Positions 9,812-34,352 of a stretch of DNA of 64,000 nt are shown here, piece after piece; position 1 is the first letter of the stretch; every line of letters starts with the position of its first letter. Below the pieces are notes generated by a model. That model saw only the letters and a program-made list of their open reading frames with translations. It made no database searches and was not told where the DNA came from. The DNA comes from an uncultured Lachnospiraceae bacterium. Its GTDB lineage: Bacteria; Bacillota; Clostridia; Lachnospirales; Lachnospiraceae. The stretch covers positions 1-64,000 of the forward strand of contig CATLGV010000009.1 of assembly GCA_949948735.1 (NCBI GenBank), read 5' to 3'. The position numbers were made by a program, and so were the translations under genes.

Positions 9812-9847
9812 AGGGCGTTTCTTTGACGAGACGGGAAGGGAGGTTCT

Positions 9848-10864
9848 ATGAAGCTGAGCATTGTAGTGCCGGTGTATAATATGGCAGAGGGCAATAAGCT
9901 CCGCTACTGTCTGGAGTCGCTGGTACATCAGACGATTGCGGATTATGAGATTATAGCGGTCGACGACGCGTCGACGGACGATTCCCTGAACATCCTGCGG
10001 GAGTACGAGTCGCGGTATCCGTGGAAGTTCCGCGTGATACAGTGTTATGAGAACCTGCGCCAGGGCGGCGCCCGCAACCGGGGAATTGAGGCGGCGCGCG
10101 GCGTCTGGCTGGGATTTGTCGATTCGGACGACTGGGTTGCGCCGGATATGTACGAGAAGCTGATAAAAAAGGCCGAGGAGACCGGCGCTGATGTGGTGGG
10201 CTGCGACTACTGCGTGGCCGAGACGCAGAGCATGCAGATTGGCCGGGTGATGCCCAACAATACGCCGGAGCAGACAGGACTTCTCGACGAGGACAGGTAC
10301 GGGCTGCTGGTGATGAATCCGGGCAGTATGGTAATCAAGGTCTATTTAAAGGCGGTTATTGATGAGCATGCGCTGCGCTTTCCGGAGAAAACCTTCTATG
10401 AGGACAACTGCGCTTCCCCGGTTTGGATGCTTCATTTTACGCATTTTGAGCGGGTGGAGGAGCCGCTTTATTACTATTATCAGCACGACGCGTCCACCGT
10501 GCACGAGATCAGCATGGAGAAATGCGAGGACAGGCTTGCGATGGGGCGGCGGCTGCTTGCGGAGAGCCGCAGATGCGGCTTTTATCAGACGTTCCGCGGC
10601 CAGCTGGAGTTTGCCTTTTCCAAGATATATTATATGAATACGCTGTTTACCTATATGCTCGGCGTGCGGCGGCCCAGACTGGCATTCTTAAAAAAGATAC
10701 GGGCGGGCATGCTGGAGGAGTTTCCGGATTTCCAGAAAAACGCGTATTATCAGAAGGAATTTGACGCGGAACAGAAGAAGCTTGCGGCGATGCATATGAA
10801 ATCGCCCCTGCGCTTCCTGATTTACTTTAAGCTGCTGTACCTATACAGAAAAATAAAACGATAA
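9848..10864 (+). CDS. Glycosyltransferase family 2
   Basis: A 338-residue GT2 enzyme: LSIVVPVYNMAEG at the start, VDDASTDDS at about residues 38-46, GGARNRGIEAARG near 75, and FVDSDDWV at about residues 90-97 as the metal-binding DXD region. A later FYEDNCASP matches the acceptor-side ED motif. AAGGGAGG precedes ATG 9848. It lies between the ABC flippase and the O-acylation pair and likely adds one sugar of the repeat unit; the sugar cannot be told. Confidence 0.88.
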   Translation: MKLSIVVPVYNMAEGNKLRYCLESLVHQTIADYEIIAVDDASTDDSLNILREYESRYPWKFRVIQCYENLRQGGARNRGIEAARGVWLGFVDSDDWVAPDMYEKLIKKAEETGADVVGCDYCVAETQSMQIGRVMPNNTPEQTGLLDEDRYGLLVMNPGSMVIKVYLKAVIDEHALRFPEKTFYEDNCASPVWMLHFTHFERVEEPLYYYYQHDASTVHEISMEKCEDRLAMGRRLLAESRRCGFYQTFRGQLEFAFSKIYYMNTLFTYMLGVRRPRLAFLKKIRAGMLEEFPDFQKNAYYQKEFDAEQKKLAAMHMKSPLRFLIYFKLLYLYRKIKR

Positions 10865-10879
10865 GGCAGGAGATTTCAG

Positions 10880-12382
10880 ATGCAGTTTACATCCTTTGCG
10901 TTTGCCGTGTTTTTTCCGGTGGTAGTGCTTTTATTTTACGTTATGCCGAAAAAATTCCGGCAGCTGTGGCTCTTACTTGCAAGCTATTTCTTTTATATGG
11001 GGTGGAACGCCAAATACGCGCTTCTGATATTGACGTCTACCATAGTGACCTATGTGTGCGGGCTGGCGCTGGAAAGAATCAGGGACAGAGAGGAGCGCCG
11101 GCAGCGGAGAAAGCGGATGGCGGCGCTTATCGCCAGTCTGGTCATCAATCTGGGGATTTTGGCGTTCTTTAAGTATTTCTACTTTTTCCATGATATTGCT
11201 GCGGCTGCGGCAGGGGTCTTTGGGCTTGAAATCGGGGAGAGCCCTCTGGATATCCTGCTGCCGGTGGGGATTTCCTTCTACACCTTTCAGGCGGTCGGCT
11301 ATACCATCGACGTATACCGGGGAACCGTCCGCGCGGAGAAGAATTTTATCCGATACGCGCTGTTCGTCTCGTTTTTTCCGCAGCTGGTCGCAGGGCCGAT
11401 TGAGCGCAGCGGTCATCTGCTGGGGCAGCTTGAGGAGATTTCCCGCAAAAGGTCATGGGATTTTGATAAGGTCGCGCGCGGGCTGTTAATGATGCTGTGG
11501 GGCTTTTTTATGAAGCTGGTGATTGCGGACAGGGCGGCCATCGTGGTGAATCAGGTATTTCCGATTTATTATATGTTCGACGGCGCGGCGTTGCTGCTTG
11601 CGGCGTTTCTGTTTACGGTGCAGATTTATTGTGATTTTGCAAGCTATTCCATGATTGCCATGGGTGCGGCGGGGGTCCTGGGGATAGAGCTGACGGCAAA
11701 CTTTGAGGCGCCGTTCTTTTCACGGAGCATTGCCGAGGTCTGGCGGCGCTGGCATATTTCCCTGAGCTCGTGGTTTCGCGACTATGTCTATATTCCGCTT
11801 GGCGGGAACCGGTGTCCGCGAATCAGGAAATATTTTAATACGATGATAACCTTCCTGCTCAGCGGGCTTTGGCACGGGGCCAGCTGGCATTTTGTGTTTT
11901 GGGGAGCGCTGCAGGGCGCCTTTATCGTGATTGGAGATGCTTTAAGGCCGCTTAAGGCGCGCGTGCAGGAGCGATTTCACATGCGCGTGCATACCTTTGG
12001 CTATGCGCTTCTTCAGGGCGGCTGTACATTTATCCTGTTTATGCTTTCGTTTGTGTTTTTCCGGACGGATACGGTAAGAGACGGCGTTTACTACATACAG
12101 CGGCTGCTTGCGCGCTTCGATGTATGGTCGCTTTTTGACGGCTCCGTATATTACCTTGGGCTTGACAGGAAGGATATGGGCGTGCTGGTGCTGGGTATCC
12201 TGATTTTGACAGGCGTGGACGCGTATTATGCGGTGAAAAGGGCCTTTTTTGATACGCTCGTCAGAGAGCAGTGCCTTGTCGTGCAGTACGTGGTGACAAC
12301 GGTGCTTTTGGTAATGATTATCGTGTTTGGCGTATATGGAGAGGGATATGATGCGACACAGTTCATTTACTTTCAGTTTTAA
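10880..12382 (+). CDS. MBOAT O-acyltransferase (AlgI/DltB family), first copy
   Basis: A 500-residue polytopic membrane protein that opens with FTSFAFAVFFPVVVLLFYVMP and carries the MBOAT signatures LPVGISFYTFQAVGYTIDVY at about residues 128-147, FFPQLVAGPIERS near 170 and the catalytic histidine in SGLWHGASWHF at about residues 328-338. Such proteins accept an acyl group from a cytoplasmic donor and pass it through the membrane to a partner that acylates an extracellular glycan. AGGAGA precedes ATG 10880. The SGNH partner gene overlaps its end by 32 bases. A second copy of this pair lies at 54009-56774. Confidence 0.93.
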   Translation: MQFTSFAFAVFFPVVVLLFYVMPKKFRQLWLLLASYFFYMGWNAKYALLILTSTIVTYVCGLALERIRDREERRQRRKRMAALIASLVINLGILAFFKYFYFFHDIAAAAAGVFGLEIGESPLDILLPVGISFYTFQAVGYTIDVYRGTVRAEKNFIRYALFVSFFPQLVAGPIERSGHLLGQLEEISRKRSWDFDKVARGLLMMLWGFFMKLVIADRAAIVVNQVFPIYYMFDGAALLLAAFLFTVQIYCDFASYSMIAMGAAGVLGIELTANFEAPFFSRSIAEVWRRWHISLSSWFRDYVYIPLGGNRCPRIRKYFNTMITFLLSGLWHGASWHFVFWGALQGAFIVIGDALRPLKARVQERFHMRVHTFGYALLQGGCTFILFMLSFVFFRTDTVRDGVYYIQRLLARFDVWSLFDGSVYYLGLDRKDMGVLVLGILILTGVDAYYAVKRAFFDTLVREQCLVVQYVVTTVLLVMIIVFGVYGEGYDATQFIYFQF

Positions 12383-13848: not shown

Positions 13849-14844
13849 ATGTTATTAGATGACAAGACAATATTGATTACGGGTGGTACGGGTTCCTTTG
13901 GCAGGTGCTTTACAAGGTATGTGTTCACGCATTACAACCCCAGGAAAATCATCATTTATTCAAGAGACGAATTCAAACAGCTGATGATGGAGAACGAGTT
14001 TGCGGAATATAAAGAGAGGCTCCGCTTTTTTATCGGCGATGTGCGCGATTATGAGCGGATGAAGCGCGCGCTTGAGGGCGTGGATTATGTGATTCATGCC
14101 GCGGCGCTCAAGCAGGTGCCGGCATGCGAGTACAATCCCAACGAGGCGATCAAGACCAATATTATGGGCGCGCAGAACGTTATCGAGGCTTCGCTGAACA
14201 CGGGCGTGAAAAAGGTGGTGGCGCTTTCGACGGATAAGGCCGTTAATCCGGTAAATCTTTACGGTGGGACAAAGCTGGTTTCGGACAAGCTTTTTATTGC
14301 GGCCAATGCGTACTGCGGCAATAAGGACCTGAATTTTTCGATTGTACGGTATGGGAATGTCGCGGGCAGCAGGGGGTCGATTATCCCGCTGTTTTATCAG
14401 TTTATCAAGGAAGGGCGCACCGAGCTTCCCATCACGGACTACCGGATGACGCGCTTCTGGATCAGCCTTACGGAGGGGATTGAGCTTGTCATTAAAGCGC
14501 TTGAGGAGGCAAAGGGCGGCGAGACCTTTATCAGCAAGATTCCTTCCTTCAAGGTGACCGATTTGGCGGAAGCGATGGCGCCGGGCATGAAGACCAGGGA
14601 GGTCGGCATCCGTCCGGGAGAAAAGCTCCATGAGGTGATGGTAACGGCGGAGGATTCCATGACCACCTACGAGTATGACAAGCATTTTATCATTTATCCG
14701 CAGATGTTCTGGCAGGAGTCCAAGCGTCCCATGCCCAGCGGGAAAAAGGTAGAGGACGGCTTCTGCTATTCCTCCGGAGCGAATACGGAGTGGCTTGACG
14801 TAGAGCAGATTCGGGAGCTGTTAAAGACAGACCTTTATGAATAA
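13849..14844 (+). CDS. pseB: UDP-N-acetylglucosamine 4,6-dehydratase (inverting)
   Basis: A 331-residue SDR protein without membrane helices. It has the NAD-binding TGGTGSFG at about residues 11-18, the family block YSRDEFKQLMMENEF at about residues 43-57, the catalytic YxxxK in LYGGTKLVS at about 138-146 and the late RPGEKLHEVM. This combination is specific for PseB/FlaA1-type enzymes, which convert UDP-GlcNAc to the 4-keto-6-deoxy-L-AltNAc product, step one of pseudaminic acid synthesis. GGAGG precedes ATG 13849 by 6 bases. It is first gene of the pse operon with its own promoter. Confidence 0.95.
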   Translation: MLLDDKTILITGGTGSFGRCFTRYVFTHYNPRKIIIYSRDEFKQLMMENEFAEYKERLRFFIGDVRDYERMKRALEGVDYVIHAAALKQVPACEYNPNEAIKTNIMGAQNVIEASLNTGVKKVVALSTDKAVNPVNLYGGTKLVSDKLFIAANAYCGNKDLNFSIVRYGNVAGSRGSIIPLFYQFIKEGRTELPITDYRMTRFWISLTEGIELVIKALEEAKGGETFISKIPSFKVTDLAEAMAPGMKTREVGIRPGEKLHEVMVTAEDSMTTYEYDKHFIIYPQMFWQESKRPMPSGKKVEDGFCYSSGANTEWLDVEQIRELLKTDLYE

Positions 14845-14890
14845 TGACCGCGCGATAAAAGGACGGCCCGGAAAGGCGGAGGAGAAGGAA

Positions 14891-16084
14891 ATGGAGAAGC
14901 CAGCAATTGCCGGTGGAGAGCCGGTTCGTGATACAAAGCTGTTCTATGGACATCAATATATTGACGATGCGGACATACAGGCCGTGTGCGAGGTGCTGCG
15001 AAGCGATTACCTTACCTGCGGGCCGAAGGTAGCCGCGCTGGAGGCAAAGCTTTGCGAGATTACGGGGGCCGGATATGCGGTTGCGTGCAGCAACGGCACC
15101 GCGGCTCTACATATGGCCGCGCTTGCGGCGGGTGTAGGAGCCGGGGACGAGCTGATAACGACGCCCATAACCTTTGCGGCGTCCGCCAATTGCGGCTTGT
15201 ACTGCGGTGCGTCGCCTGTTTTCGCGGACATTAATCCCAGAACCTACAACATTGACCCCGAGAGCGTGCGCGCAAAGCTTACGGAGCGGACAAAGGCTGT
15301 CGTGGCGGTTGATTTTACGGGGCAGGCCGCGGAGCTTGACCCTCTGCTTGCCCTGTGCCGGGAGCGGGGAATCGTGCTGATTGAAGATGCGGCGCATTCG
15401 ATCGGCACCAAATACAAGGGGAAACCCGTCGGGAGTATTGCCGATATGACGACCTTCAGCTTTCATCCGGTAAAGACGGTTACGGGCGGGGAGGGCGGCG
15501 CGGTGCTGACAAACAGTCCGGAATACTATCAGAAGCTGCTGCTGGCACGCGCTCACGGCATTACAAGGGACGCCGGGCTGCTGGAGCGCCCTTCGCATGG
15601 CGCATGGTATTACGAGCAGATTGATTTGGGCTGGAATTACAGGCTGACGGATATTCAGTGCGCGTTGATTTTGAGCCAGATAGACAAGCTGGAGCAGTTT
15701 TCCGGCAGGCGCAGGGAGATCGTGGCGCAGTACAATGAGGCGTTTTCGAAAATGCCGGAGCTGTTTGTGCAGGAGGAGATTCCGGAATCGGACACGACAA
15801 GGCATCTGTATATCCTGCGGCTTGTGCCGGAGCGTCTGCGGATTGACCGCAAGGGCTTTTTTGAGGCGCTGGCCGCGGAGAATATCTGCTGTAATGTGCA
15901 TTACATTCCGGTTTACCGTCATCCCTATTATGAGAAGCTCGGCTATAAGGAGGGTCTGTGCCCGAACGCGGAGAAGCTCTACAAGGAGATCCTGAGTCTG
16001 CCGCTGTACTATGCGCTCACTGATCAGGATGTTGCGGACGTTATCCGGGCAGTCGCCAAAATCGTGGCATATTATAAAAAATAA
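14891..16084 (+). CDS. pseC: UDP-4-amino-4,6-dideoxy-N-acetyl-beta-L-altrosamine transaminase
   Basis: A 397-residue PLP-dependent DegT/DnrJ/EryC1 aminotransferase. The N-terminal PVRDTKLFYGHQYID and the PLP-lysine block SFHPVKTVTGGEGG (lysine at about residue 194) are PseC-type. It aminates the PseB product at C4. The start is placed at ATG 14891 because GGAGGAG at 14879-14885 serves it; ATG 14837 lies inside pseB and has no ribosome site. A stem-loop follows its stop codon. Confidence 0.93.
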   Translation: MEKPAIAGGEPVRDTKLFYGHQYIDDADIQAVCEVLRSDYLTCGPKVAALEAKLCEITGAGYAVACSNGTAALHMAALAAGVGAGDELITTPITFAASANCGLYCGASPVFADINPRTYNIDPESVRAKLTERTKAVVAVDFTGQAAELDPLLALCRERGIVLIEDAAHSIGTKYKGKPVGSIADMTTFSFHPVKTVTGGEGGAVLTNSPEYYQKLLLARAHGITRDAGLLERPSHGAWYYEQIDLGWNYRLTDIQCALILSQIDKLEQFSGRRREIVAQYNEAFSKMPELFVQEEIPESDTTRHLYILRLVPERLRIDRKGFFEALAAENICCNVHYIPVYRHPYYEKLGYKEGLCPNAEKLYKEILSLPLYYALTDQDVADVIRAVAKIVAYYKK

Positions 16085-16150: not shown

Positions 16151-16849
16151 GTGAGAAGCGTTGCGATGATTACGGCGCGGGGCGGGAGCAAGCGCATACC
16201 GCGCAAGAATATAAAGCCGTTCCTGGGACGTCCTATACTGACATACAGCATTGAGGCGGCTCTGCAGGCTGGTATTTTTGAGGAGGTCATGGTTTCGACC
16301 GACGACGAGGAGATTGCCCAGGCGGCGAAGGCGGCCGGGGCGGCAGTGCCCTTTTTGCGGAGCGCGAAGACGGCGAACGATTTTGCGACCACCGCGGAGG
16401 TGGTTGAGGAGGTCCTAGCGTCCTATGAGCGCATGGGAACGGTGTTTGACACGGCGTGTTGTATCTATCCGACGGCGCCGTTTGTGACGGCGGATGCGCT
16501 TCGGACGGCGATGCGGCTTCTGAATCAGGAGGAGGCGGACGCGGTGATTCCGGTCGTGCGCTTTTCCTTTCCGCCGCAGCGCGGCGTTGTGATTAAGGAC
16601 GGGCGGCTTGTGCCCAGGTGGCCGGAGAATATGGCGAAGCGTTCGCAGGATTTGGAGCCGCTCTATCACGACTGCGGGCAGTTTTACTGCCTGAATGTGC
16701 CCAGCTTTATCAGGCAGAAGGCGATATGGATGGAGAATGTCGTTCCGTTTGTGCAGGAGGAGATCAATGTGCAGGATATTGATACGGAACAGGACTGGGA
16801 AATCGCGGAGCTGAAGTATCAGGTCCTGCGCGGACGGCAGCCCCGGTGA
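16151..16849 (+). CDS. pseF: Pseudaminic acid cytidylyltransferase
   Basis: A 232-residue CMP-sugar synthetase of the CMP-NeuAc synthetase type. The N-terminal MITARGGSKRIPRKNIKPF is the CTP-binding P-loop-like motif, followed by LTYSIEAALQAG. A DACCIYPTAPF-like TACCIYPTAPF stretch at about residues 102-112 and LYHDCGQFYCL near 175 are PseF features that separate it from NeuA. It activates pseudaminic acid (or a derivative) as the CMP sugar. It begins with GTG 16151; GGAGG at 16137-16141 precedes it by 9 bases. Confidence 0.9.
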   Translation: MRSVAMITARGGSKRIPRKNIKPFLGRPILTYSIEAALQAGIFEEVMVSTDDEEIAQAAKAAGAAVPFLRSAKTANDFATTAEVVEEVLASYERMGTVFDTACCIYPTAPFVTADALRTAMRLLNQEEADAVIPVVRFSFPPQRGVVIKDGRLVPRWPENMAKRSQDLEPLYHDCGQFYCLNVPSFIRQKAIWMENVVPFVQEEINVQDIDTEQDWEIAELKYQVLRGRQPR

Positions 16850-16876
16850 GAACCGCGGGGCGCTTTGGAAAGGGAA

Positions 16877-17938
16877 ATGGTGGAGAAGATGGACGGTATC
16901 AATATTAACGGAAGAAGAATCGGGGACGGTGCGCCGGCGTACATTATCGCCGAAATGTCGGGAAATCATGCAGGGGACATGGGCCGCGCGCTGGAGATGA
17001 TTCATGTGGCGAAGGAGGCCGGTGCGGACTGTGTGAAGATACAGACCTACACGCCGGATACAATGACAATTGACTGTCATAATCAATACTTTCATATTGA
17101 GGGGGGAACCTGGAAGGGTGAAAACCTGTACGCGCTTTATCAAAAGGCTTATACGCCGTGGGAATGGCAGGATAAGCTGCGGGACGAGGCGGCGAAGGCA
17201 GGCATTGATTTTCTCTCCACGCCGTTTGATGCGACCTCCGTGGACTTTCTGGAGGAGCTGGGCGTACAGTTTTATAAGATTGCGTCCTTTGAGATGGTGG
17301 ATATTCCCCTGCTGGAATATATCGCATCCAAGAATAAGCCGATCATCATGTCGACGGGGATGGGCTCCCTGGAGGAGATTACGGAGGCTGTTGACGCCAT
17401 CTACGCGGCCGGCAACCGGCAGCTTGCGTTGATGAAATGCTCCAGCGCTTACCCTGCCAGACGCGAGGAGATGAATTTAAAAACGATTCCCGATATGAAA
17501 AAGCGTTTCGGGATTCCGGTGGGGCTTTCGGATCATTCCATGGGGGCGTTCAGTGCGGCGACGGCAGTTGCCATGGGCGCCAATATTATCGAAAAACACT
17601 TCTGCGTCAGCAGGGCAATCAAGAATCCCGATTCGGCGTTTTCCATGGAGCCGCAGGAGTTCCGGGAGATGGTGGAACAGGTGCGCGAGGTGGAGAAGGC
17701 GTTTGGCAGCGTATTTTACGGCGTTTCCGAGCAGGAGGAGTCCAATACCTGCTTTCGGCGTTCGCTTTTTGTGGTGCAGGACATTGCGGCGGGAGAGCAG
17801 CTGACGCCGGAAAATATCCGAAGCATCCGTCCCGCGTACGGGCTGAAGCCCAGGCATTATAAAGAGGTTCTTGGAAAACGGGCTGCCCGCGCGTTAAAGC
17901 GCGGTACGCCGCTTACCTTTGAGGATATTGCGGATTAG
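16877..17938 (+). CDS. pseI: Pseudaminic acid synthase
   Basis: A 353-residue NeuB-family enzyme. The PEP-condensing TIM barrel begins with YIIAEMSGNHAGDMG and contains CVKIQTYTPDTMTID, FLSTPFDATSVDFLEE, PIIMSTGMG, LMKCSSAYPA and VGLSDHSMG, then IEKHF. The last about 60 residues form the antifreeze-like SAF domain (SLFVVQDIAAGEQLTPENI to RGTPLTFEDI). CSSAYPA and YTPDTMT favour PseI over NeuB or LegI. It condenses 2,4-diacetamido-2,4,6-trideoxy-L-altrose, or a remodelled form, with phosphoenolpyruvate. ATG 16877 and ATG 16889 are both possible starts; neither has ideal spacing. Confidence 0.92.
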   Translation: MVEKMDGININGRRIGDGAPAYIIAEMSGNHAGDMGRALEMIHVAKEAGADCVKIQTYTPDTMTIDCHNQYFHIEGGTWKGENLYALYQKAYTPWEWQDKLRDEAAKAGIDFLSTPFDATSVDFLEELGVQFYKIASFEMVDIPLLEYIASKNKPIIMSTGMGSLEEITEAVDAIYAAGNRQLALMKCSSAYPARREEMNLKTIPDMKKRFGIPVGLSDHSMGAFSAATAVAMGANIIEKHFCVSRAIKNPDSAFSMEPQEFREMVEQVREVEKAFGSVFYGVSEQEESNTCFRRSLFVVQDIAAGEQLTPENIRSIRPAYGLKPRHYKEVLGKRAARALKRGTPLTFEDIAD

Positions 17939-17947: not shown

Positions 17948-18394
17948 ATGGAATTGTATTTGCGCGAGGTGGAAGAGGCGGACATGGACTTGCTCTTTCG
18001 ATGGGCAAACGACCCTGATGTGCGCCGCAGCGCGTTTCATACGGAGGCGATACCCTACGAAACTCATGTAAAATGGTTTCACCGGATGATGGAGAATGAG
18101 GCGGCGTATCTGTATATTTTATGCCGTGCAGAGGAAGCGGTCGGACAGATACGGCTGGATATTGAGGACAGTGTGGCGGTGATTGATTACAGCGTTGCGC
18201 CCGGGTACCGGGGCAGGGGCTTTGGCAGGGCGCTGCTGATGCTGATAAAGGAGAAAGCCATGGAGATAACAGGCGTCAAAAAACTTGTGGGGCAGGTAAA
18301 ACCCGAAAACAGCGCGTCCATAAAGGCATTTGAACAGTGCGGCTATGTGAGAATGAAGGGCGAGGATTATATAACGTTTGTTTTTGAATTGTGA
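17948..18394 (+). CDS. pseH: GNAT N-acetyltransferase, PseH-type
   Basis: A 148-residue GNAT protein: LYLREVEEADMDLLFRWAND at the start, VAVIDYSVAPGYRGRGFGRA at about residues 76-95 with the acetyl-CoA-binding RGRGFG loop, and VKPENSASIKAFEQCGY near 120. The WANDPDVRRSAF segment is common to PseH-like acetyltransferases that N-acetylate the 4-amino group of the PseC product. GGAG sits 8 bases before ATG 17948. Identity as PseH rests strongly on its place in the pse operon. Confidence 0.82.
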   Translation: MELYLREVEEADMDLLFRWANDPDVRRSAFHTEAIPYETHVKWFHRMMENEAAYLYILCRAEEAVGQIRLDIEDSVAVIDYSVAPGYRGRGFGRALLMLIKEKAMEITGVKKLVGQVKPENSASIKAFEQCGYVRMKGEDYITFVFEL

Positions 18395-18409
18395 AGAAGG
18401 AGGAACCGG

Positions 18410-19120
18410 GTGAGGATTATTATCGCAACCATAAAGGAGTGGAATATCAGGCGTGCGCTGCAGCTGCAGGAGCGGTACAGGCAGCACGAGATACGTCTGA
18501 TTACGCAAAAAGAGGAATTCACATATGATAACATATGTAACTTTAACCCAGACTATATCTTTTTGCCGCACTGGTCCTACTATATTCCAGATAAAATAAC
18601 AGATGCGTGGGAATGCGTTGTGTTTCACATGACGGATCTGCCGTACGGAAGAGGCGGGAGTCCGCTGCAAAATCTGATTGTGCGCGGGCATCGGGAGACG
18701 AAGGTGTCCGCAATCAGGGTGACTGCGGCGTTTGATGAAGGCCCGGTATATATGAAACGGCCGTTATCGCTGGACGGCTCTGCCACGGAAATTTTTGAGC
18801 GCTGTGCGGATGTGGTCTTTAACGAGATGCTTCCCTGTTTCCTGGAGGAAGCTCCCGGGGGGAGGCCCCAGGCCAGCCCGCAGGTGGGGGAGCCGGTGAT
18901 ATTTAAGCGGCGTAAGCCGGAGGAAAGCGAGATAACACCCGATATGGATATAGATAAGATTTACGACTATATCCGTATGCTGGATGCGGAGGGATATCCG
19001 CGGGCGTTTATTGATTATGGAGGATACCGGCTGCGCTTCGAGGCGGCGTCGCTTGACGAAGCCGGCAATACGCTGGCGGCACGGGTGGTTTTTCGGAAAA
19101 GGGAAGAGGAGGACGTATGA
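18410..19120 (+). CDS. Sugar N-formyltransferase-like protein in the pse operon
   Basis: A 236-residue protein of the methionyl-tRNA-formyltransferase/sugar-formyltransferase fold. Residues about 45-60 hold NFNPDYIFLPHWSYYIP, residues about 70-92 hold FHMTDLPYGRGGSPLQNLI, and FDEGPVYMKRPLSL follows. The His of the usual Asn-His-Asp triad and the Asp are present, but the Asn position (two before the His) is Val. Formyl donor in known relatives is N10-formyl-tetrahydrofolate. It is too short and in the wrong context to be the housekeeping Fmt. It sits between pseH and a deacetylase with a 4-bp ATGA overlap, so a role in making an N-formyl pseudaminic acid derivative is inferred. AAGGAGG precedes GTG 18410. 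Confidence 0.72.
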   Translation: MRIIIATIKEWNIRRALQLQERYRQHEIRLITQKEEFTYDNICNFNPDYIFLPHWSYYIPDKITDAWECVVFHMTDLPYGRGGSPLQNLIVRGHRETKVSAIRVTAAFDEGPVYMKRPLSLDGSATEIFERCADVVFNEMLPCFLEEAPGGRPQASPQVGEPVIFKRRKPEESEITPDMDIDKIYDYIRMLDAEGYPRAFIDYGGYRLRFEAASLDEAGNTLAARVVFRKREEEDV

Positions 19121-19812
19121 AGACGGTTTTGGTAGTGGCGGCGCACCCGGATGATGAGATCCTCGGCGTGGGCGGCACGGTGGCGCGTCATGCGGCTGCA
19201 GGCGATGCGGTCTACGCGCTTATTTTGGGAGAGGGACAGACCTCCCGCGGGGCGCGCAGAGAGGATACGGACAGCGCGGTTGTGGACAGCCTGCACCGGA
19301 ATACGCAGGAGAGCGCCGATAAAGTGGGGTTTCGAAAGGTATTTTTTGCCGATTTTCCGGACAACCGCTTTGACGGCGTGGATCTGCTCGACATTGTGAA
19401 GGCGGTGGAAAAGGTGGTGGAGGAGCTGCGGCCGCAGATTATCTATACGCATTACAGCGGTGATTTGAATATTGACCACCAGTGTACGGCGCGTGCGGTG
19501 CTTACGGCGACGCGGCCGATAGGGGCATACTGCGTGGAGGAGCTCTATGCGTTTGAGACGCTCTCCTCTACGGAATGGGCATTTGATTACAGCGGACAGC
19601 CGGCGTTTTGCCCCAACGTGTTTGTGGATATTACGGATTATTATGACCGGAAGGAACAGGCGATGCGATGCTATGTGTCGGAGCTTTGCGCATCTCCGCA
19701 TCCAAGGAGCCTTGAGGGCATGGACGCGCTCTCAAAAACGCGCGGCATGACGGCGGGGATGGCGCGTGCGGAGGCTTTTATGCTGATACGCAAAACCGTC
19801 CGCGCGGACTGA
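19117..19812 (+). CDS. PIG-L/LmbE-family deacetylase in the pse operon
   Basis: A 231-residue zinc-dependent N-deacetylase. The metal motif AHPDDEILGVGGT lies at about residues 8-20 and YTHYSGDLNIDH at about residues 110-121 supplies the second histidine group. PIG-L enzymes remove N-acetyl groups from amino sugars. Start ATG 19117 overlaps the formyltransferase-like gene's stop (ATGA), so the two are translated together. The pairing suggests that one acetyl group of the nonulosonic acid or its precursor is removed and replaced by formyl; this is inference, as substrate cannot be read directly. Confidence 0.82.
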   Translation: MKTVLVVAAHPDDEILGVGGTVARHAAAGDAVYALILGEGQTSRGARREDTDSAVVDSLHRNTQESADKVGFRKVFFADFPDNRFDGVDLLDIVKAVEKVVEELRPQIIYTHYSGDLNIDHQCTARAVLTATRPIGAYCVEELYAFETLSSTEWAFDYSGQPAFCPNVFVDITDYYDRKEQAMRCYVSELCASPHPRSLEGMDALSKTRGMTAGMARAEAFMLIRKTVRAD

Positions 19813-19854
19813 CATACTGCCTGCGGGCGCTGGGCGTCCAGAAAGGAAAGAGCG

Positions 19855-20898
19855 ATGCTTTATATTCGTGCGGACGGTAATGCGGCAATCGGAATGGGAC
19901 ATATCATGCGGTGCATGTCGATTGCGGAAGCGGTATACGACAGGACGGGGGAGAGACCGGTATTTATTGTTGCGGAGGACGCCTGTGTCCCGATGCTGGC
20001 GGACAGGGGCTTTGCCGCGCGGGTGCTGGGGACGGATTACCGGGCGATGGAGACGGAGCTGCCGGCGCTATCACGAGTTTTGCAGCCGCAGGACGTGATT
20101 CTGGTGGACAGCTATCAGGCGGTCCTCGCCTATTATCAGAAGCTGCGGGCAAACTGCGCGGTGGCCTGTCTGGAGGACATGGGAACGCCTTATCCGGTGG
20201 ATTTGCTGATTAATTACAATCTATACGCACCGGCGTTAGAGGGACAATATAGGCAGGGGGCGCCGGATATGCTGCCGGACAGGCTTCTTCTGGGCGCTGC
20301 GTATATGCCGCTGCGGGCGGATTTTCGAACGGACACTGCGTATACGGTGCGGGAACAGGTAACGGATGTTATGATAACAACGGGGGGAAGTGATCCGTGT
20401 TTTGCGGCCGGCGCGCTGCTGGAATGCCTGACAGGCTGCGATGCGGCGGCGGGAATCCGCTGTCATGTTGTTATCGGCCCGTTTAACCGCTTTGCCGGGA
20501 CGTTAAGACAGCGATACGGTGCGCACGGTGCGGTGCGCCTCTATGAGAATGTGAAGGATATGAAGGCGCTGATGCGCTCCTGCGACGTCGTTATTACGGC
20601 CACGGGAAGCACGCTCTACGAGATAAGCGCGCTGGGCGTGCCGATGATCTGCTTTTATTTTGCGGAGAATCAGCGGCAGGGGGCGGAGGCGATTGCAAGG
20701 CTTACGGATATTGTAAACGCGGGCTGCTTTGCGGCGCGCCGGGAGGAGACGGTTGACGCTGTTTTGCGGGCGCTTTTGCGCTGCATCGGCGACAGGGCGT
20801 ACCGGCAGACGCTGTACCGGCAGGAGCGGCAGCTTGTGGACGGCGCGGGCGCCGGCCGGATTGCGGCTGCAGTGCTGGGCTGCAGCAGGAGGCTCTGA
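19855..20898 (+). CDS. pseG: UDP-2,4-diacetamido-2,4,6-trideoxy-beta-L-altropyranose hydrolase
   Basis: A 347-residue GT-B fold UDP-sugar hydrolase of the MurG/GT28 type. The opening RADGNAAIGMGHIMRCMSIA contains the catalytic GxGHxxRC block of PseG. VDSYQAVLAYYQKLR and MITTGGSDPCFAAGALLEC are also conserved, with a late ITATGSTLYEISALGVPMI donor-site region. It releases UDP from the precursor so that PseI can act. It completes the pathway: PseB, C, H, G, I and F are all present between 13849 and 20898. Confidence 0.92.
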   Translation: MLYIRADGNAAIGMGHIMRCMSIAEAVYDRTGERPVFIVAEDACVPMLADRGFAARVLGTDYRAMETELPALSRVLQPQDVILVDSYQAVLAYYQKLRANCAVACLEDMGTPYPVDLLINYNLYAPALEGQYRQGAPDMLPDRLLLGAAYMPLRADFRTDTAYTVREQVTDVMITTGGSDPCFAAGALLECLTGCDAAAGIRCHVVIGPFNRFAGTLRQRYGAHGAVRLYENVKDMKALMRSCDVVITATGSTLYEISALGVPMICFYFAENQRQGAEAIARLTDIVNAGCFAARREETVDAVLRALLRCIGDRAYRQTLYRQERQLVDGAGAGRIAAAVLGCSRRL

Positions 20899-20991: not shown

Positions 20992-22101
20992 ATGGCGGAG
21001 AAGAAAAAGCGGCAGTTAAATTACGAGATACTCAGAATCCTTGCGATGCTGATGATTGTCTGTCTGCACTATCTGAGCAGGAGCGGACTGCTTGGCGACC
21101 CCGCGCGCGCCGACATGACAACGGCGGACTATGCGGCATGGCTGACAGAGGCCCTCTGCATTGTCGCGGTCAATGTGTATATGCTGATCAGCGGATATTT
21201 CGGCGGGGGCGAGGCAGGGAAAACGACGCTTCTTACGGCAGAATCGGTCGTAAAAAGGCCTCTGCGAATCTGGCGCGTTGCTTTTTTTTATTCGTTGGGA
21301 ATCGGGCTTTTGGCGTTTCTTGCGGGCGCGGGAGAATTTGACATATACCGTCTCTTTACGTATATATTTCCCGTTGTGACGGAGCATTACTGGTTTGTAA
21401 CCGCGTATATTATTCTCTGTCTGCTGATGCCGTTTCTGAACGCGGGGACAGCGATGCTTTGCAGAAGAGGGATGTACGCGCTGATTTTTGGCATGCTTTT
21501 GCTCTTCTGCATTGCCAAGACCGTGCTGCCGATGAAGCTTCCGTGGGATAAGTACGGTTATGACGCCTTCTGGTTTATCACGCTGTATCTGACCGGTGCG
21601 GCGCTGAAAAGGTACGGGATGCCCATTCTTCAAAAAAGAGGACGGGCGCTTGCGGTGTATCTGGCGAGCATTTTGCTGATTTTTGCAAGCTTTATCGGAA
21701 TAAGGGCGGTATATTTGAAGACCGGACATTTGGAGAGCATGATATCGTATGCCTATACCTACAACCACCTGTTCTGTTATACGGGCGCGATCGGGTTGTT
21801 TATGGCTTTCTCACAGCGCGCGGGCGGCGGAGAGCGGCTGGAGCGCTTCCGCAGGCCCATAGAGCTTTTTTCGGGCGCGACCTTTGGCGTATATCTGCTG
21901 CATGAGCATATCGATATCCGGGAGCGGTGGACGGGCTGGTTTGGGGACGGCGCGGCGCCGGGCGGTTCGATTGCGGGCTTTCTGCTCCGTATGCTTCTTG
22001 TGGTGCCTGCCATGTATCTGGCCTGCTCGGCAGTCGAAATCCTGCGGATGAAGCTTGCGCTGCTTGTGCGGCCGGGGAATAAAAGAAAGGAGCGCAGCTG
22101 A
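20992..22101 (+). CDS. Acyltransferase family 3 (OafA-like) membrane protein
   Basis: A 369-residue protein with about ten hydrophobic helices. The N-terminal LNYEILRILAMLMIVCLHYL has the acyltransferase_3 arginine and histidine block (R-I-x-A-x-x-M-I-V-x-x-H). Later EHYWFVTAYIILCLLMPFLN and a terminal GVYLLHEH agree with the family. Such proteins O-acetylate sugars of surface glycans using a cytoplasmic acyl donor. It lies 93 bases after pseG, and may act on the pseudaminic acid or a neighbouring sugar. Its ribosome site is weak (AAGGA at 20976-20980). Confidence 0.82.
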   Translation: MAEKKKRQLNYEILRILAMLMIVCLHYLSRSGLLGDPARADMTTADYAAWLTEALCIVAVNVYMLISGYFGGGEAGKTTLLTAESVVKRPLRIWRVAFFYSLGIGLLAFLAGAGEFDIYRLFTYIFPVVTEHYWFVTAYIILCLLMPFLNAGTAMLCRRGMYALIFGMLLLFCIAKTVLPMKLPWDKYGYDAFWFITLYLTGAALKRYGMPILQKRGRALAVYLASILLIFASFIGIRAVYLKTGHLESMISYAYTYNHLFCYTGAIGLFMAFSQRAGGGERLERFRRPIELFSGATFGVYLLHEHIDIRERWTGWFGDGAAPGGSIAGFLLRMLLVVPAMYLACSAVEILRMKLALLVRPGNKRKERS

Positions 22102-25100
22102 TACGGAAAGACAATCAGAAATCCGAAGCAACAGAATATGGACGCTGTATCTGCCGGCTGTGGCGCTCCTGTTTTATCCGCTGCGCCATGTCCTGACGGG
22201 AATCGATTTGATGGATGCGGGCTACGCATTGGGGAATTACCGTTTTTTTGACAGCATGGGGCAGATGTGGAAGCTTGCGACATACCTTGCGAATGTGCTG
22301 GGAAGCGCGTTGTCCTGTCTGCCGTTTGGCGGTACGTGGAGCGGGATGAACGCTTATACCGGGCTGCTGGCAGGCGGGACGGCCGCTGCGGTGTATGTGT
22401 TTATGGCAAAACGGTATGGGCGGCAGCGCGGATACAGGCTTATGTTTTTTGCGGCAGAGCTTGTAGCGCTTTCCCTTTGCTGGGCGCCTGCGGTTATCCT
22501 GTATCAATATCTGGGGTATCTGATAATGACTGCGGCTGCGCTTGTCCTATTTTGCGCGGTTACGGAGGACTGCCGCGTGAAATATGCTGTCGCCGGAATC
22601 CTGCTGGGGCTGTGCGTGGCGGTTCGGATGCCGAATATCACATACATGGCGTTTATCGTGCCGGTATGGTATTTTTTCTTTTTGAAACGCAGAAGCTATG
22701 AGGGAAGCCTTAAAAGGGCGCTGCAGCGCACGCTGCTCTGTATCGCGGGGTATCTTGCGGGGCTTTTGATACCGCTTGGCGTGATTGCGCTGCGCTACGG
22801 CGCAGGGGCATATCCGGAGATGATCGGGAATCTGTTTGGAATGACGGAGACGGCGACGGACTATAAGCCCTCTTCAATGCTTTGGGCAATGCTTGGGGAC
22901 TACATCCGTTACAGCCTGTGGCTGCTCCTGTTTCTGGCCTATATGGCGGCGGGCATGCTCTTTTTTGCCGTAAAAGGCCGGATGGCAGGGGGCAGGAGGA
23001 CGGCTGGGGGAGCCCGGCTGTTCCGGGGATTGTATCTGGCCGGCTTTCTGGTCCTTCTGCGGCTTTGCTACGGCAGGGGCATGTTTGATTTTGATTATAC
23101 GGCCTACTTCTCCATGTATAAATGGGCGGTCGTTTATCTGCTGGCGATCATCCTGCTTTGTATCTGGATGCTGCTGCGCAAAAACGGGGATGATACCCTG
23201 AAGCTGTGGTCCGTATTTGTGCTTGTCACGATTTTTATCACGCCGCTTGGCAGCAACAACGGCCTTTATCCGATTATCAATAACCTGTTTCTTGTGGCGC
23301 CGGTGTCGGTGCTGCTCTTGGCGGAGGCGTGCCGCGCGTTGAACCGGACTGCGGCCCGCCCTTGTAATGGGGATTTGGCGTTTGCGGCCAGAGCGGCGCT
23401 TGGCTTTATCGTGCTCTGTACCGCGATACAGAGCTTCCTGTTCGGAATCGGCTTTATATTCCACGACGCAGGCAGTAAGCGCGTTCCCTTGCGGCTGCAG
23501 AGCGGCGCGGCTGCGGACGGAATGCGCACGACCGACGAAAAGGCGGCGCAGCTGCAGACGCTCGACCGCTTCCTGACGGAAAGCGGCCTGATTTCAAGCC
23601 GCGTTATTCTGTACGGAGACATTCCTGCGCTGGCTTATATCTTCGGTATGGAGCCTGCGGTGTTCTCCACGTGGCCGGATCTGGACTCCAACGCGCTTGC
23701 GTGGCTGGAGGCGGATCTGGAGGCGATAGACGGCGACTGGCCTGTGGTTATCCTTGGGGCGGAGGCGGTTGACCGGCTGACCGGGCAGTCCGGCGCGGCA
23801 TACGAGAAGCTGTGCGCAATCCGGTCTTTTATGCAGGAGAATGGTTATGCGGAGGTGTATACGAACGACGCGTATCGGGTGTACAGCAGTGCGGCGGACC
23901 AAACGGCAGCATGTATGAAAACACCTTTTAACATTCCGATAAGCCTTTCAATTATCTTGCAAAATATGGATAAAGTGTGTAAGATAAAAAATAATGCAGC
24001 TGTGCGAAGGGAGCGTTTTATGATTAATTTTAACGTACCGCCGTTTACCGGAAGAGAGCTTGAATATATCAGGCAGGCAGTCGAGAATCAGAAAATCTGC
24101 GGCGACGGCCCGTATACGAAAAAGTGCAGTGAATGGATCGAGGAAAAAACAGGGGCGGCGAAGTGCCTGCTGACCCCCTCCTGTACGCATGCCAACGAGC
24201 TTGCCGCGCTTTTGCTCGACATTAAGGAGGGCGACGAGGTCATTATGCCGGCCTTTACCTTTGTGTCGACGGCGGACTCTTTTGTACTGCGCGGTGCGAA
24301 GGCGGTATTTGTCGATATCCGTCCGGATACAATGAACATTGATGAGAAGAAGATCGAAGCGGCCATTACGCCGCAGACAAAGGCTATTGCGCCGGTACAT
24401 TACGCAGGGGTTGCCTGCGAGATGGATGCCATCATGGCGCTTGCGCGCAAATATCATCTGGCGGTGGTAGAGGATGCGGCGCAGGGGATTATGGCTTCTT
24501 ATAAAGGAAGGGCGCTTGGCGCAATCGGAGACTTCGGATGCTTCTCCTTCCATGAGACGAAGAACCTCAGTATGGGAGAGGGCGGTGCCCTTTTGATTCA
24601 GAATGAGCGGTACGTGGAGGATGCGGAAATCATCCGGGAGAAGGGGACAAACCGCAGCAAGTATTACAGAGGCCAGGTTGATAAATACACATGGATCAAT
24701 TACGGCTCGTCTTATCTGCCAAGCGATATGAACGCCGCATATCTCTGGGCACAGCTTGAGCTGGCGCAGGAGATAACGCAGGCACGGCTTGCGCGGTGGA
24801 ATCAGTATTATACGCTGCTGGAGCCGCTGGCGCAGCGGGGGCTGATCGGTCTTCCGACAGTGCCGGAGGGATGCGCGCACAACGGGCATATGTTTTATAT
24901 AAAGACAAGGGATATCGAGGAGCGGGGCAGGTTCATTCAGTTTATGAAGGAGAACGGCGTTATGGCGGTATTTCACTATGTACCGCTTCACACGGCGCCC
25001 GCCGGCCGCAAATTCGGCGTCTTTGTCGGGGAGGACGTCTATACGACAAGGGAGAGCGAGCGTCTTGTCCGCCTTCCGATGTTTTATTCGTTAAAGGAAT

Positions 25101-25150
25101 CAGAGGTTGATTATATTGTAAGCAGGGTGAAGGAGTTCTATCACGTATGA
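22055..25150 (+). CDS. Stop-less reading frame: polytopic membrane protein joined to WecE-type aminotransferase
   Basis: One frame is open from 22055 to the TGA at 25148-25150, up to 1031 residues. Residues about 25-480 form a membrane protein with about ten hydrophobic helices and an outer-facing end (DRFLTESGLISSRVILYGD). Its family was not recognised; the layout is GT-C-like. It is followed by about 35 low-complexity residues and then a complete aminotransferase beginning at 24020. The start is unclear: AAAGGAG at 22084-22090 has no ATG/GTG/TTG in this frame after it. The in-frame TTGs at 22055 and 22064 lie inside the acyltransferase gene, and the first ATG (22211) would cut off a hydrophobic helix. 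A promoter and ribosome site before 24020 suggest two separate proteins that have lost the stop between them, or a true fusion. Confidence 0.6.
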   Translation: MRCLCGRGIKERSAADTERQSEIRSNRIWTLYLPAVALLFYPLRHVLTGIDLMDAGYALGNYRFFDSMGQMWKLATYLANVLGSALSCLPFGGTWSGMNAYTGLLAGGTAAAVYVFMAKRYGRQRGYRLMFFAAELVALSLCWAPAVILYQYLGYLIMTAAALVLFCAVTEDCRVKYAVAGILLGLCVAVRMPNITYMAFIVPVWYFFFLKRRSYEGSLKRALQRTLLCIAGYLAGLLIPLGVIALRYGAGAYPEMIGNLFGMTETATDYKPSSMLWAMLGDYIRYSLWLLLFLAYMAAGMLFFAVKGRMAGGRRTAGGARLFRGLYLAGFLVLLRLCYGRGMFDFDYTAYFSMYKWAVVYLLAIILLCIWMLLRKNGDDTLKLWSVFVLVTIFITPLGSNNGLYPIINNLFLVAPVSVLLLAEACRALNRTAARPCNGDLAFAARAALGFIVLCTAIQSFLFGIGFIFHDAGSKRVPLRLQSGAAADGMRTTDEKAAQLQTLDRFLTESGLISSRVILYGDIPALAYIFGMEPAVFSTWPDLDSNALAWLEADLEAIDGDWPVVILGAEAVDRLTGQSGAAYEKLCAIRSFMQENGYAEVYTNDAYRVYSSAADQTAACMKTPFNIPISLSIILQNMDKVCKIKNNAAVRRERFMINFNVPPFTGRELEYIRQAVENQKICGDGPYTKKCSEWIEEKTGAAKCLLTPSCTHANELAALLLDIKEGDEVIMPAFTFVSTADSFVLRGAKAVFVDIRPDTMNIDEKKIEAAITPQTKAIAPVHYAGVACEMDAIMALARKYHLAVVEDAAQGIMASYKGRALGAIGDFGCFSFHETKNLSMGEGGALLIQNERYVEDAEIIREKGTNRSKYYRGQVDKYTWINYGSSYLPSDMNAAYLWAQLELAQEITQARLARWNQYYTLLEPLAQRGLIGLPTVPEGCAHNGHMFYIKTRDIEERGRFIQFMKENGVMAVFHYVPLHTAPAGRKFGVFVGEDVYTTRESERLVRLPMFYSLKESEVDYIVSRVKEFYHV
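23957..23985 (+). promoter_or_regulatory. Sigma-A-type promoter for the WecE-type aminotransferase gene
   Basis: TTGCAA (23957-23962), 17-base spacer, TAAGAT (23980-23985), inside an AT-rich patch that contrasts with the GC-rich coding sequence on both sides. Expected transcription start is near 23992, 28 bases before ATG 24020. The patch lies within the continuous reading frame from 22055. Confidence 0.65.
24020..25150 (+). CDS. WecE/RffA-type dTDP-4-amino-4,6-dideoxygalactose transaminase
   Basis: A 376-residue PLP aminotransferase, the same length as Escherichia coli WecE as I recall it. The opening NFNVPPFTGRELEYI and KICGDGPYTKKCSEWIEEKT are typical of WecE/RffA. The PLP lysine lies in SFHETKNLSMGEGG at about residue 181, and EDAAQGIMASYKGRALGAIG precedes it. 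WecE aminates dTDP-4-keto-6-deoxyglucose to give dTDP-Fuc4N. No rmlA/rmlB is in the window, so the keto-sugar must come from elsewhere. AAGGGA at 24007-24012 and its own promoter support a separate start at ATG 24020, although the frame upstream is open. It overlaps the next gene by ATGA. Confidence 0.88.
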   Translation: MINFNVPPFTGRELEYIRQAVENQKICGDGPYTKKCSEWIEEKTGAAKCLLTPSCTHANELAALLLDIKEGDEVIMPAFTFVSTADSFVLRGAKAVFVDIRPDTMNIDEKKIEAAITPQTKAIAPVHYAGVACEMDAIMALARKYHLAVVEDAAQGIMASYKGRALGAIGDFGCFSFHETKNLSMGEGGALLIQNERYVEDAEIIREKGTNRSKYYRGQVDKYTWINYGSSYLPSDMNAAYLWAQLELAQEITQARLARWNQYYTLLEPLAQRGLIGLPTVPEGCAHNGHMFYIKTRDIEERGRFIQFMKENGVMAVFHYVPLHTAPAGRKFGVFVGEDVYTTRESERLVRLPMFYSLKESEVDYIVSRVKEFYHV

Positions 25151-27093: not shown

Positions 27094-27645
27094 ATGACAG
27101 ATATGGAACCAGTGAAAAAGGATTTGAAGCTCCGCGGACAGAGGATTTACCTCCGGCCTATTACGGAGGAGGATACTGCGCGGGTGGTGCGATGGAGAAA
27201 CGAGAAATCGGTAGTGGAAAATTTTATATACAGAAAGCCGATATCCGAGGCGGAGCATCGGGAATGGCTCAAAAGCAAGGTGGAGACAGGGCTTGTGCAT
27301 CAGTTGATTGTCTGCCGTAATGAGGATGACGCGCCGCTGGGGTGCGTTTATCTGCAGAACTTTGAGGAGACCAACAGAAAGGCCGAGGAGGGAATTTTCC
27401 TGGGAGAGCGCGGGCTGTGCGGAAGCGGTATCGGCACGGAGGCGGCGAAGCTGATGCTGTCCTATGCCTTTGATACATTGGGGCTTCATAAGCTTGTGGC
27501 AAGGGTGCTGGCGTTTAACCGCTCCAGTATCCGCATGCATGAGAAGGCGGGCTACACACAGGAGGCATACTTAAAGGAAGAACTGTTCCTGAACGGAAAG
27601 TACGAGGATTTGATTTTATTCGGTGCGATAAATCCTGAAAGATAG
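27094..27645 (+). CDS. GNAT acetyltransferase (RimJ/RimL type), likely amino-sugar acetylase
   Basis: A 183-residue GNAT. The opening LRGQRIYLRPITEEDTARVV and RWRNEKSVVENF are RimJ/L-like; the acetyl-CoA loop is GLCGSGIGTEAAKLMLSYAF at about residues 110-129, and RVLAFNRSSIRMHEKAGY follows. This family includes acetylases for 4-amino or 3-amino dideoxy sugars. Standing 1.9 kb after a WecE-type aminotransferase, it probably plays the part of WecD, making Fuc4NAc or a related sugar; that is inference. A housekeeping ribosomal acetylase is the alternative and is less likely in this context. Confidence 0.75.
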   Translation: MTDMEPVKKDLKLRGQRIYLRPITEEDTARVVRWRNEKSVVENFIYRKPISEAEHREWLKSKVETGLVHQLIVCRNEDDAPLGCVYLQNFEETNRKAEEGIFLGERGLCGSGIGTEAAKLMLSYAFDTLGLHKLVARVLAFNRSSIRMHEKAGYTQEAYLKEELFLNGKYEDLILFGAINPER

Positions 27646-33197: not shown

Positions 33198-33212
33198 AAG
33201 GGAGGTTTTGCA

Positions 33213-34352
33213 ATGTCAGAGAATGAGAAAAGCAGGCGGATTTATCTGTCTTCACCGACGATGCACGGTGAGGAGCAGCGTTTTGTGGCGGAGGCATTCG
33301 ATACGAACTGGGTCGCGCCGCTCGGGCCGAATGTGAACGGCTTTGAGACGGAGATGGCGGCATATACGGGCTGCGGCTATGCGGCGGCGCTCAGCGCGGG
33401 GACGGCTGCAATTCATCTGGGCCTGAAGCTGCTGGGGGTACAGCGGGGCGACGTTGTTTTCGTGTCCTCCCTGACCTTTTCCGCAAGCTGTAATCCGATT
33501 GTGTATGAGGGCGCAAAGCCGGTGTTTATCGACGCGGAGCCGGATACCTGGAATATGTCCCCCGGGGCGCTTGAGCGCGCCTTTGAGAAATATCCGAATC
33601 CGAAGGCGGTAGTGGTGGTGCATCTGTACGGAACGCCCGCAAAGCTGGATGAGATTATGGAAATCTGCAGCCGGCATCAGGTACCGGTGCTTGAGGACGC
33701 GGCGGAGTCCCTTGGATCTACATACAAGGGCGTGTATACAGGCACCTTTGGCCGCATCGGCGTCTACTCCTTTAACGGAAACAAAATCATTACGACCTCC
33801 GGCGGCGGCATGCTGGTGTCGAAGGAGGAGGCGCTCGTACAGGAGGCGCGGGTGCTTTCCACACAGGCGCGTGACGCGGCAAGGCACTATCAGCATTCCA
33901 AAATCGGATACAATTACAGGATGAGCAATGTCGTCGCGGGCATCGGCAGAGGGCAGCTTTTGCACATGGATGCGCATAAGGCCCTGAAAAACAAAATATA
34001 TTATAGGTATAAAGAAGCGTTTGCGGACATGGACGAGATTTCCATGAATCCCATGAACCCTGACGGGGATGCGAACAACTGGCTTTCGTGCATAACGCTT
34101 AAGGAGGGCTGCCGCGTGACACCCACGGCGGTGATGGATGCGCTTGAGGCGGAGAATATCGAGTCGCGCCCGATCTGGAAGCCGATGAATTTGCAGCCGG
34201 TATTTGCGGACTGTGACTTTTTCAACCATAACGCGGACGGAATCAGCGTGGGCGAGGACATCTTTAACAGAGGGCTGTGCCTGCCAAGCGACATTAAGAA
34301 TACGGATGCGGATATGGAGCGGATTATCGGCATTATCAGAGGCCTGTTTTAG
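33213..34352 (+). CDS. pglE: UDP-4-amino sugar aminotransferase (PglE/EpsN type)
   Basis: A 379-residue DegT-family PLP aminotransferase. IYLSSPTMHGEEQRFVAEAF and NWVAPLGPNVNGFE at the start are the PglE/EpsN/PglC-cluster form; the PLP lysine is in YSFNGNKIITTSGGGM at about residue 191. It would aminate the PglF product to UDP-4-amino-4,6-dideoxy-GlcNAc. GGGAGG precedes ATG 33213, 15 bases after pglF. Context makes the assignment strong; a biochemically distinct 4-amino sugar cannot be excluded. Confidence 0.9.
   Translation: MSENEKSRRIYLSSPTMHGEEQRFVAEAFDTNWVAPLGPNVNGFETEMAAYTGCGYAAALSAGTAAIHLGLKLLGVQRGDVVFVSSLTFSASCNPIVYEGAKPVFIDAEPDTWNMSPGALERAFEKYPNPKAVVVVHLYGTPAKLDEIMEICSRHQVPVLEDAAESLGSTYKGVYTGTFGRIGVYSFNGNKIITTSGGGMLVSKEEALVQEARVLSTQARDAARHYQHSKIGYNYRMSNVVAGIGRGQLLHMDAHKALKNKIYYRYKEAFADMDEISMNPMNPDGDANNWLSCITLKEGCRVTPTAVMDALEAENIESRPIWKPMNLQPVFADCDFFNHNADGISVGEDIFNRGLCLPSDIKNTDADMERIIGIIRGLF

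Follow-up and report, generated by a model that had tools for sequence, protein, structure and literature searches.

A formyltransferase-fold protein and a PIG-L family deacetylase in a pseudaminic acid operon, with a predicted role at the amine that becomes C5

Pseudaminic acid (Pse) is found on flagella, pili and capsules, and glycosyltransferases, lectins, phages and immune receptors recognise it. Its pathway has two nitrogens: N4, later at C7, is acylated by PseH, and N2, later at C5, carries the acetyl group of UDP-GlcNAc. PseJ, which we take to be the enzyme type for 7-N-formyl pseudaminic acid and to come from the 7-formamido-pseudaminic acid pathway of Anoxybacillus, acts on the 4-amine with no deacetylase involved. 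Here we describe two adjoining genes of an uncultured Lachnospiraceae bacterium, found in a stretch of 64,000 nucleotides (GenBank assembly GCA_949948735.1, contig CATLGV010000009.1, positions 1 to 64,000) referred to as the window. They encode a protein of formyltransferase fold, Fmt1, and a PIG-L family deacetylase, and they stand within an operon of pse genes. Like PseJ (PDB 6ci2, 6ci4), Fmt1 would be a formyltransferase of a Pse pathway; unlike PseJ, it is paired with PIG-L and placed beside PseH or PseJ relatives. Judging from sequence comparison, we consider it fairly probable that the pair adds a side arm to pseudaminic acid synthesis in which one acyl group is stripped off and another put in its place, with 5-formamido-7-acetamido-pseudaminic acid (Pse5Fo7Ac) as its product.

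7-N-formyl pseudaminic acid is reported from Pseudoalteromonas distincta (PMC3210612) and also appears in a title cited in PMC7281560. 5-N-formyl-legionaminic acid from Halorubrum sp. PV6 (PMC6137143) is a chemical precedent for a formyl group at C5; like Pse5Fo7Ac it is a nonulosonic acid with N-formyl at that position, but it is legionaminic. A 953-bp product is given there for the putative formyltransferase gene, and the terms deacetyl, LmbE and PIG-L are absent from the text of that source. In Aeromonas flagellin islands a gene called 'deacetylase' lies between pseH and pseI or between pseF and pseG (PMC7874193), which resembles the window in having a deacetylase among pse genes; its family is unstated and the term formyl is absent in the text available. 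Formyltransferases in flagellin islands appear in PMC4875605 and in PMC5109656, which also summarises the Pse pathway with its two nitrogens; the available portions assign no Pse nitrogen to them. In Campylobacter coli, a methionyl-tRNA formyltransferase and pseH are among the genes special to one clade (PMC12102941). In the openly licensed literature we found no description of the Fmt1-PIG-L pair, no use of the term 'Pse5Fo7Ac', and nothing on pseudaminic acid with both a formyltransferase and a deacetylase.

A gene pair linked to pseudaminic acid loci

The Pse proteins of the window were scored with NCBIfam models and their curated cut-offs. PseB, PseC, PseF and PseI exceeded the cut-offs and PseG fell marginally below, whereas the operon's GNAT failed the PseH model and is, by model alone, only a PseH-like GNAT. 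We take it as PseH because its relatives form fusions with PseG in a genome of the same genus and with PseI in Halanaerobium. A second PseH-like GNAT in the window (27094-27645) scored 88 bits, above the operon GNAT and below the cut-off. The reading frames agree with an earlier sequence-only reading of this DNA, which had described a complete pse gene set with a formyltransferase-fold gene and a PIG-L gene, joined by a 4-bp overlap, between pseH and pseG; the set is complete with the two lower-scoring members just named, and the stop of Fmt1 and the start of PIG-L share the ATGA at 19117-19120. In another genome of the window's genus (locus L151), pseB-C-F-I is followed directly by a PseH-PseG fusion, and a search of that genome at E 1e-30 gave no PIG-L of this kind. 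The pair is therefore a discrete add-on to a plain pse operon, as had been supposed.

To follow the pair elsewhere, contigs were scanned with five Fmt1 sequences as query and no pse gene as bait. The scan gave 285 relatives, from which the 80 best were taken, a sample biased to close relatives with many Lachnospiraceae; together with L149, L156 and L176 these gave the 83 distinct loci examined. The closest named relatives were Lachnospiraceae, and the sample also spans Planctomycetota, Treponema, Elusimicrobia, Desulfobacteraceae, Oligoflexia, Halorhodospira, Halanaerobium, Thermotogae and two candidate phyla. Cultured carriers include Halanaerobium kushneri, Desulfosporosinus lacus, Halorhodospira neutriphila and Synechococcus NIES-970. 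PIG-L was present in 78/83 loci, directly downstream of Fmt1 in 72 of the 78, and a PseI/NeuB-type synthase was likewise present in 78/83, so the pair does recur in other pse operons. In the five loci without PIG-L the stretch ends about 54, 4, 0, 19 and 585 bp past Fmt1. The last, L092, has some 580 bases (4929-5508) after Fmt1 to the contig end and is the sole PIG-L-less locus that a cut right behind Fmt1 does not explain. Of the five loci lacking a synthase, L050, L109 and L114 come from genomes that encode one at another place (10 kb upstream of the pair in L050 is devoid of pse genes), L069 has a synthase piece at the contig start (98 bits), and L080 starts inside Fmt1. Nine of ten divergent synthases scanned exceeded the PseI cut-off; that of L101 is nearer NeuB and passes neither cut-off. 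Dozens of pse loci with the pair were recovered without pse bait, so its linkage to pse genes is more than chance.

The pair is uncommon. Fmt1 orthologues occurred in 2/200 genomes of the same family, the window's own included, compared with PseI above cut-off in 45/200, and PF21553, the Fmt1 family, in 5/398 genomes of a phylum sample, again including its own, and in 0/14 control genomes. No Fmt1 match was found in phages. Fmt1 matched 15 plasmid records, one of which, from Synechococcus NIES-970, encodes a cyanobacterial Fmt1 (44% identity over 90% of Fmt1) again within a pse-like cluster; the other nine plasmid matches listed are 23-29% identical. Distances between Fmt1 sequences and between PIG-L sequences correlate over 76 loci (r 0.85; partial given PseI 0.62). 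This would agree with joint inheritance, yet does not single the pair out, as the PIG-L/PseI correlation is also 0.85 (partial 0.62). In L149 (L032), Fmt1 is split across two overlapping frames (8105-8793), either genuinely or through a sequencing error. Four unassigned long frames lie between pseI and Fmt1 in L062 (4438-9981), and in L082 pseF and pseI are separated by a gap.

Fusions, called where a single frame runs through both parts, join members of the pair to each other and to Pse enzymes. PseH is fused to Fmt1 in seven loci (L043, L046, L073, L083, L084, L092 and L094; Fmt1 is identical in L043 and L046), Fmt1 to PIG-L in L054 (481 amino acids), and PIG-L to PseH in the Treponema locus L089. 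PseH is also fused to PseI (L081) and to PseG (L151 and L141, both from genomes without an Fmt1 orthologue). Gene content, conservation, fusions and pse linkage are thus observed, and we have high confidence in the reality of the pair, its conservation and its tie to pseudaminic acid.

The nitrogen and stage at which the pair would act

The route proposed here is a prediction as to the two enzyme activities, the nitrogen acted on and the UDP-sugar stage. PseB and PseC would give UDP-2-acetamido-4-amino-2,4,6-trideoxy-L-altrose, whose 4-amine PseH would acetylate; PIG-L would remove the 2-N-acetyl group of UDP-GlcNAc origin, exposing the amine that becomes C5, and Fmt1 would formylate it. PseG, PseI and PseF would then lead to CMP-Pse5Fo7Ac. 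Where Fmt2, another formyltransferase, or a PseJ relative stands in place of PseH, the product would be a di-N-formyl sugar.

The evidence on the nitrogen comes from substitutions at the PseH slot. A GNAT without Fmt2 is present in 64 of the 83 loci, Fmt2 without a GNAT in 8, both in 3 and neither in 8. The GNAT lies at most 3 kb from Fmt1 in 64 of the 67 GNAT-bearing loci; that of L062 is 8.3 kb away and of a second, WecE-associated type. Two of the loci with neither, L079 and L104, hold a PseJ relative with Fmt1-PIG-L and no GNAT (L079: best PDB match PseJ, 156 bits, E 7.7e-45; L104: 153 bits to the L079 protein), L102 has another PF00551 formyltransferase between pseI and Fmt1, and the remaining five have little DNA on one or both sides. 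Two Planctomycetota loci, L078 and L099, have a common order, PseB-PseC-...-PseG-Fmt1-PIG-L-X-PseI-PseF, with a GNAT or Fmt2 as X; L078 has one extra frame between pseC and pseG. In L178 and L179, compact pseB-C-F-G-Fmt2-I operons lack GNAT, Fmt1 and PIG-L. Since N4 is the only free amine in operons of that type, the simplest assignment for Fmt2 is the 4-amine. N4 is thus most simply served by PseH, Fmt2 or PseJ relatives, and Fmt1-PIG-L would therefore serve the other nitrogen. Six of the eight genomes with Fmt2 and no GNAT in the locus were searched for PseH-family proteins at E 1e-6. None was found in G597, G602, G604 and G605, whose assemblies may be incomplete, so that the 2-N-acetyl group would be the only pathway acetyl available to PIG-L there; G598 and G599 have PseH-like GNATs elsewhere in the genome. 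The amine concerned, which the sequence-only reading had left unnamed, is one that these comparisons point to as that becoming C5.

Several observations weigh against this scheme. GNAT and Fmt2 occur together in 3/83 loci: L112, L105 (nearest GNAT 4.8 kb off) and L176 (fused). In L089, L110 and L111, Fmt1-PIG-L is accompanied by both a GNAT and a PseJ relative (scoring 91-214 bits against the one in L079), one acyltransferase beyond what two nitrogens need. PseH-like GNATs stand elsewhere in the genomes of L095 and L097, and also in those of five of the eight loci that lack both GNAT and Fmt2. In G607 (L101) and G890 (L113) we found no PseH-family protein and recognised no other N4 acyltransferase in the loci; Fmt1 might serve N4 in these. 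PIG-L of this subfamily is also found in pse-like loci that lack Fmt1 and hence does not partner Fmt1 exclusively; Fmt1 lacks the catalytic Asn of its fold, position 71 being Val, Ile or Cys in 87/87 rows of its alignment (five of them repeats); and no Pse structure from a pair-bearing organism was found in the openly licensed literature. PseJ relatives cut both ways, those of L079 and L104 for the simple scheme and those of L089, L110 and L111 against it. A strict rule of one acyltransferase per nitrogen was rejected on the loci with surplus acyltransferases. In L111, two PseJ relatives flank Fmt1-PIG-L (9367-12030) and a PseH-like GNAT is also present.

Some of these points would suit a route in which Fmt1 formylates the 4-amine like PseJ, PIG-L strips the 2-N-acetyl group and the GNAT re-acylates there, giving Pse5R7Fo. 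The 7-N-formyl sugar of P. distincta fits such a route, as do the sub-threshold score of the operon GNAT, which might add another acyl group, and the missing N4 acyltransferase of G607 and G890. We nevertheless regard it as unlikely. The same type of GNAT is fused to PseG without the pair in L151 and L141, where only the 4-amine needs acylation; the GNATs of two Fmt1-PIG-L loci, L078 and L149, exceed the PseH cut-off; Fmt2 replaces the GNAT both with and without Fmt1-PIG-L; and a PseJ relative, of a type known for N4, takes the place of the GNAT beside Fmt1-PIG-L in L079 and L104.

Alternatively, the pair could have a late target, either C5 or C7 of Pse, CMP-Pse or the attached glycan. There is a PseA-type precedent for remodelling a different N-acyl group, and gene order alone leaves the stage unfixed. 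We infer the UDP-sugar stage from the fusions of PseH with Fmt1, PIG-L and PseG and from the position of the pair, flanked by pseH and pseG; late action appears distinctly unlikely.

Residues and relatives of Fmt1 and PIG-L

Fmt1 reaches the Pfam gathering score of PF00551, and its fold resembles formyltransferases along its whole length. His73, Asp76 and Asp109 are each kept in 87/87 rows of the alignment, and an RG..SP stretch is nearly invariant among the relatives. The Fmt2 sequences compared also lack the catalytic Asn, whereas L079's PseJ relative and the L102 formyltransferase keep it. Because Fmt1 lacks the Asn of the Asn-His-Asp site, the formyl part of the proposal is unproven. The expectation of a non-standard sugar, which the sequence-only reading had derived from deacetylation and N-formylation, is thus borne out in part: comparison ties the pair to pseudaminic acid, and the missing Asn weakens the case for the formyl group. 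Fmt1 might instead transfer another one-carbon or acyl unit, or be a non-catalytic partner of PIG-L, as the uniform loss of Asn would allow; with the other site residues invariant and the fold intact throughout, we find this quite improbable.

Known relatives of Fmt1 are remote. PseJ was absent among 33 Fmt1 matches at E up to 1, and Fmt1 matched the PseJ relative of L079 with 24-37 bits at most; PseJ was also absent among the 50 fold matches listed, which says nothing on fold. ArnA, VioF, WbkC and other sugar N-formyltransferases are about 11-22% identical to Fmt1, and the aligned relatives WbkC and a Coxiella Fmt keep the Asn where Fmt1 has Val. An identity as methionyl-tRNA formyltransferase (TIGR00460) was rejected at 28 bits against a cut-off of 201.5. 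The Clostridium thermocellum structure 1zgh bears that name, which implies tRNA, whereas the Fmt1 family data suggest a sugar enzyme. In one annotated record Fmt1 is labelled methionyl-tRNA formyltransferase and PIG-L an LmbE-like protein.

The PIG-L of the window scored 97 bits with PF02585, against 28 bits, and has the PIG-L fold with HPDD and the distal His. In its alignment H10, D12 and D13 are kept in 79/79 rows and H121 in 78/78; we take HPDDE to be the metal and catalytic motif and His121 the distal His. BshB and the diacetylchitobiose deacetylases have the fold and the HPDD...H residues in common with it, but are only about 20-26% identical and act on other substrates.

The window also holds WbpM-like, LegC-family and WecE-family amino-sugar enzymes, but that the pair merely sits in the operon and modifies another sugar of the polysaccharide locus is highly improbable and was set aside, given its cross-phylum linkage to pse in loci with different neighbours and its fusions with Pse enzymes.

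If a 5-N-formyl side arm is correct, the pair would mark makers of that variant as a two-gene predictor of surface chemistry and provide two new enzymes for Pse analogue synthesis. It would also test whether an enzyme of formyltransferase fold works without its Asn, and suggest a role for 1zgh.

PIG-L without Fmt1, and the surroundings of the operon

PIG-L matches of at least 47% identity occurred in 7/200 same-family genomes, two of which have Fmt1, and strict coupling of PIG-L to Fmt1 (2/200) was rejected. In L188-L191, PIG-L occurs without Fmt1 together with PseC, PseG and a PseH-like GNAT; the synthases of L188-L190 are nearer NeuB than PseI and below both cut-offs, and that of L191 is PseI. 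L191 has an LpxD-like N-acyltransferase near PIG-L and PseI (176 bits, cut-off 207), L188 and L189 have an ATP-grasp protein, an amidohydrolase and a methyltransferase beside PIG-L, and L189 also has a radical SAM protein. L187, a short contig, has PIG-L with a partial synthase, and in L177 Fmt2 and PIG-L lie about 7 kb apart without Fmt1. The varying partners in L188-L191 suggest a replaceable partner that re-acylates the amine exposed by PIG-L. On these few loci we offer, tentatively, a modular C5 arm, in which a dedicated PIG-L may strip the UDP-GlcNAc acetyl group and a swappable partner re-acylate. On this view C5, whose substituent is usually regarded as set by UDP-GlcNAc, would vary as much as C7 does, and in many phyla. 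In L193 (6424-7996), a more distant PIG-L (37%) adjoins a 301-amino-acid formyltransferase (PF00551, PF02911); no pse enzyme was recognised in the stretch, and the two perhaps apply strip-and-formylate logic to a different sugar.

Features of the window and their positions (scores from NCBIfam models)
Feature	Position	Strand	Remarks
pseB, UDP-GlcNAc 4,6-dehydratase (inverting)	13849..14844	+	TIGR03589 526 bits, cut-off 408
pseC, aminotransferase	14837..16084	+	TIGR03588 464 bits, cut-off 424
pseF, CMP-pseudaminic acid synthetase	16151..16849	+	TIGR03584 289 bits, cut-off 206
pseI, pseudaminic acid synthase	16865..17938	+	TIGR03586 477 bits, cut-off 340
PseH-like GNAT N-acetyltransferase, 148 amino acids	17948..18394	+	TIGR03585 62 bits, cut-off 93; predicted N4 acylation
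Fmt1, formyltransferase fold, 236 amino acids, GTG start	18410..19120	+	putative N-formyltransferase of the re-acylation step
VFHMTD motif of Fmt1	18620..18637	+	Val71 at the usual Asn place, then His73, Asp76
Asp109 of Fmt1, conserved catalytic-type Asp	18734..18736	+	87/87 rows
PIG-L family deacetylase, 231 amino acids	19117..19812	+	predicted 2-N-acetyl removal
HPDDE motif of PIG-L, presumed metal/catalytic	19144..19158	+	
His121 of PIG-L, presumed distal His	19477-19479	+	
pseG, UDP-sugar hydrolase, 347 amino acids	19855..20898	+	TIGR03590 153.2 bits, cut-off 153.55
WbpM-like dehydratase	31329-33197		
LegC-family aminotransferase	33213-34352		

The operon is surrounded by a large surface-polysaccharide locus. 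A second amino-sugar set (31329-39527) includes a phosphoglycosyltransferase, an ATP-grasp protein and TviB- and TviC-like enzymes. A single frame of 1031 amino acids (22055-25150) has a WecE-family transaminase as its C-terminal part, from about 24050; its upstream part looks membrane-protein-like by eye, and the frame possibly holds two genes. Two asparagine-synthase-type amidotransferases lie at 43644-45548 and 56820-58715.

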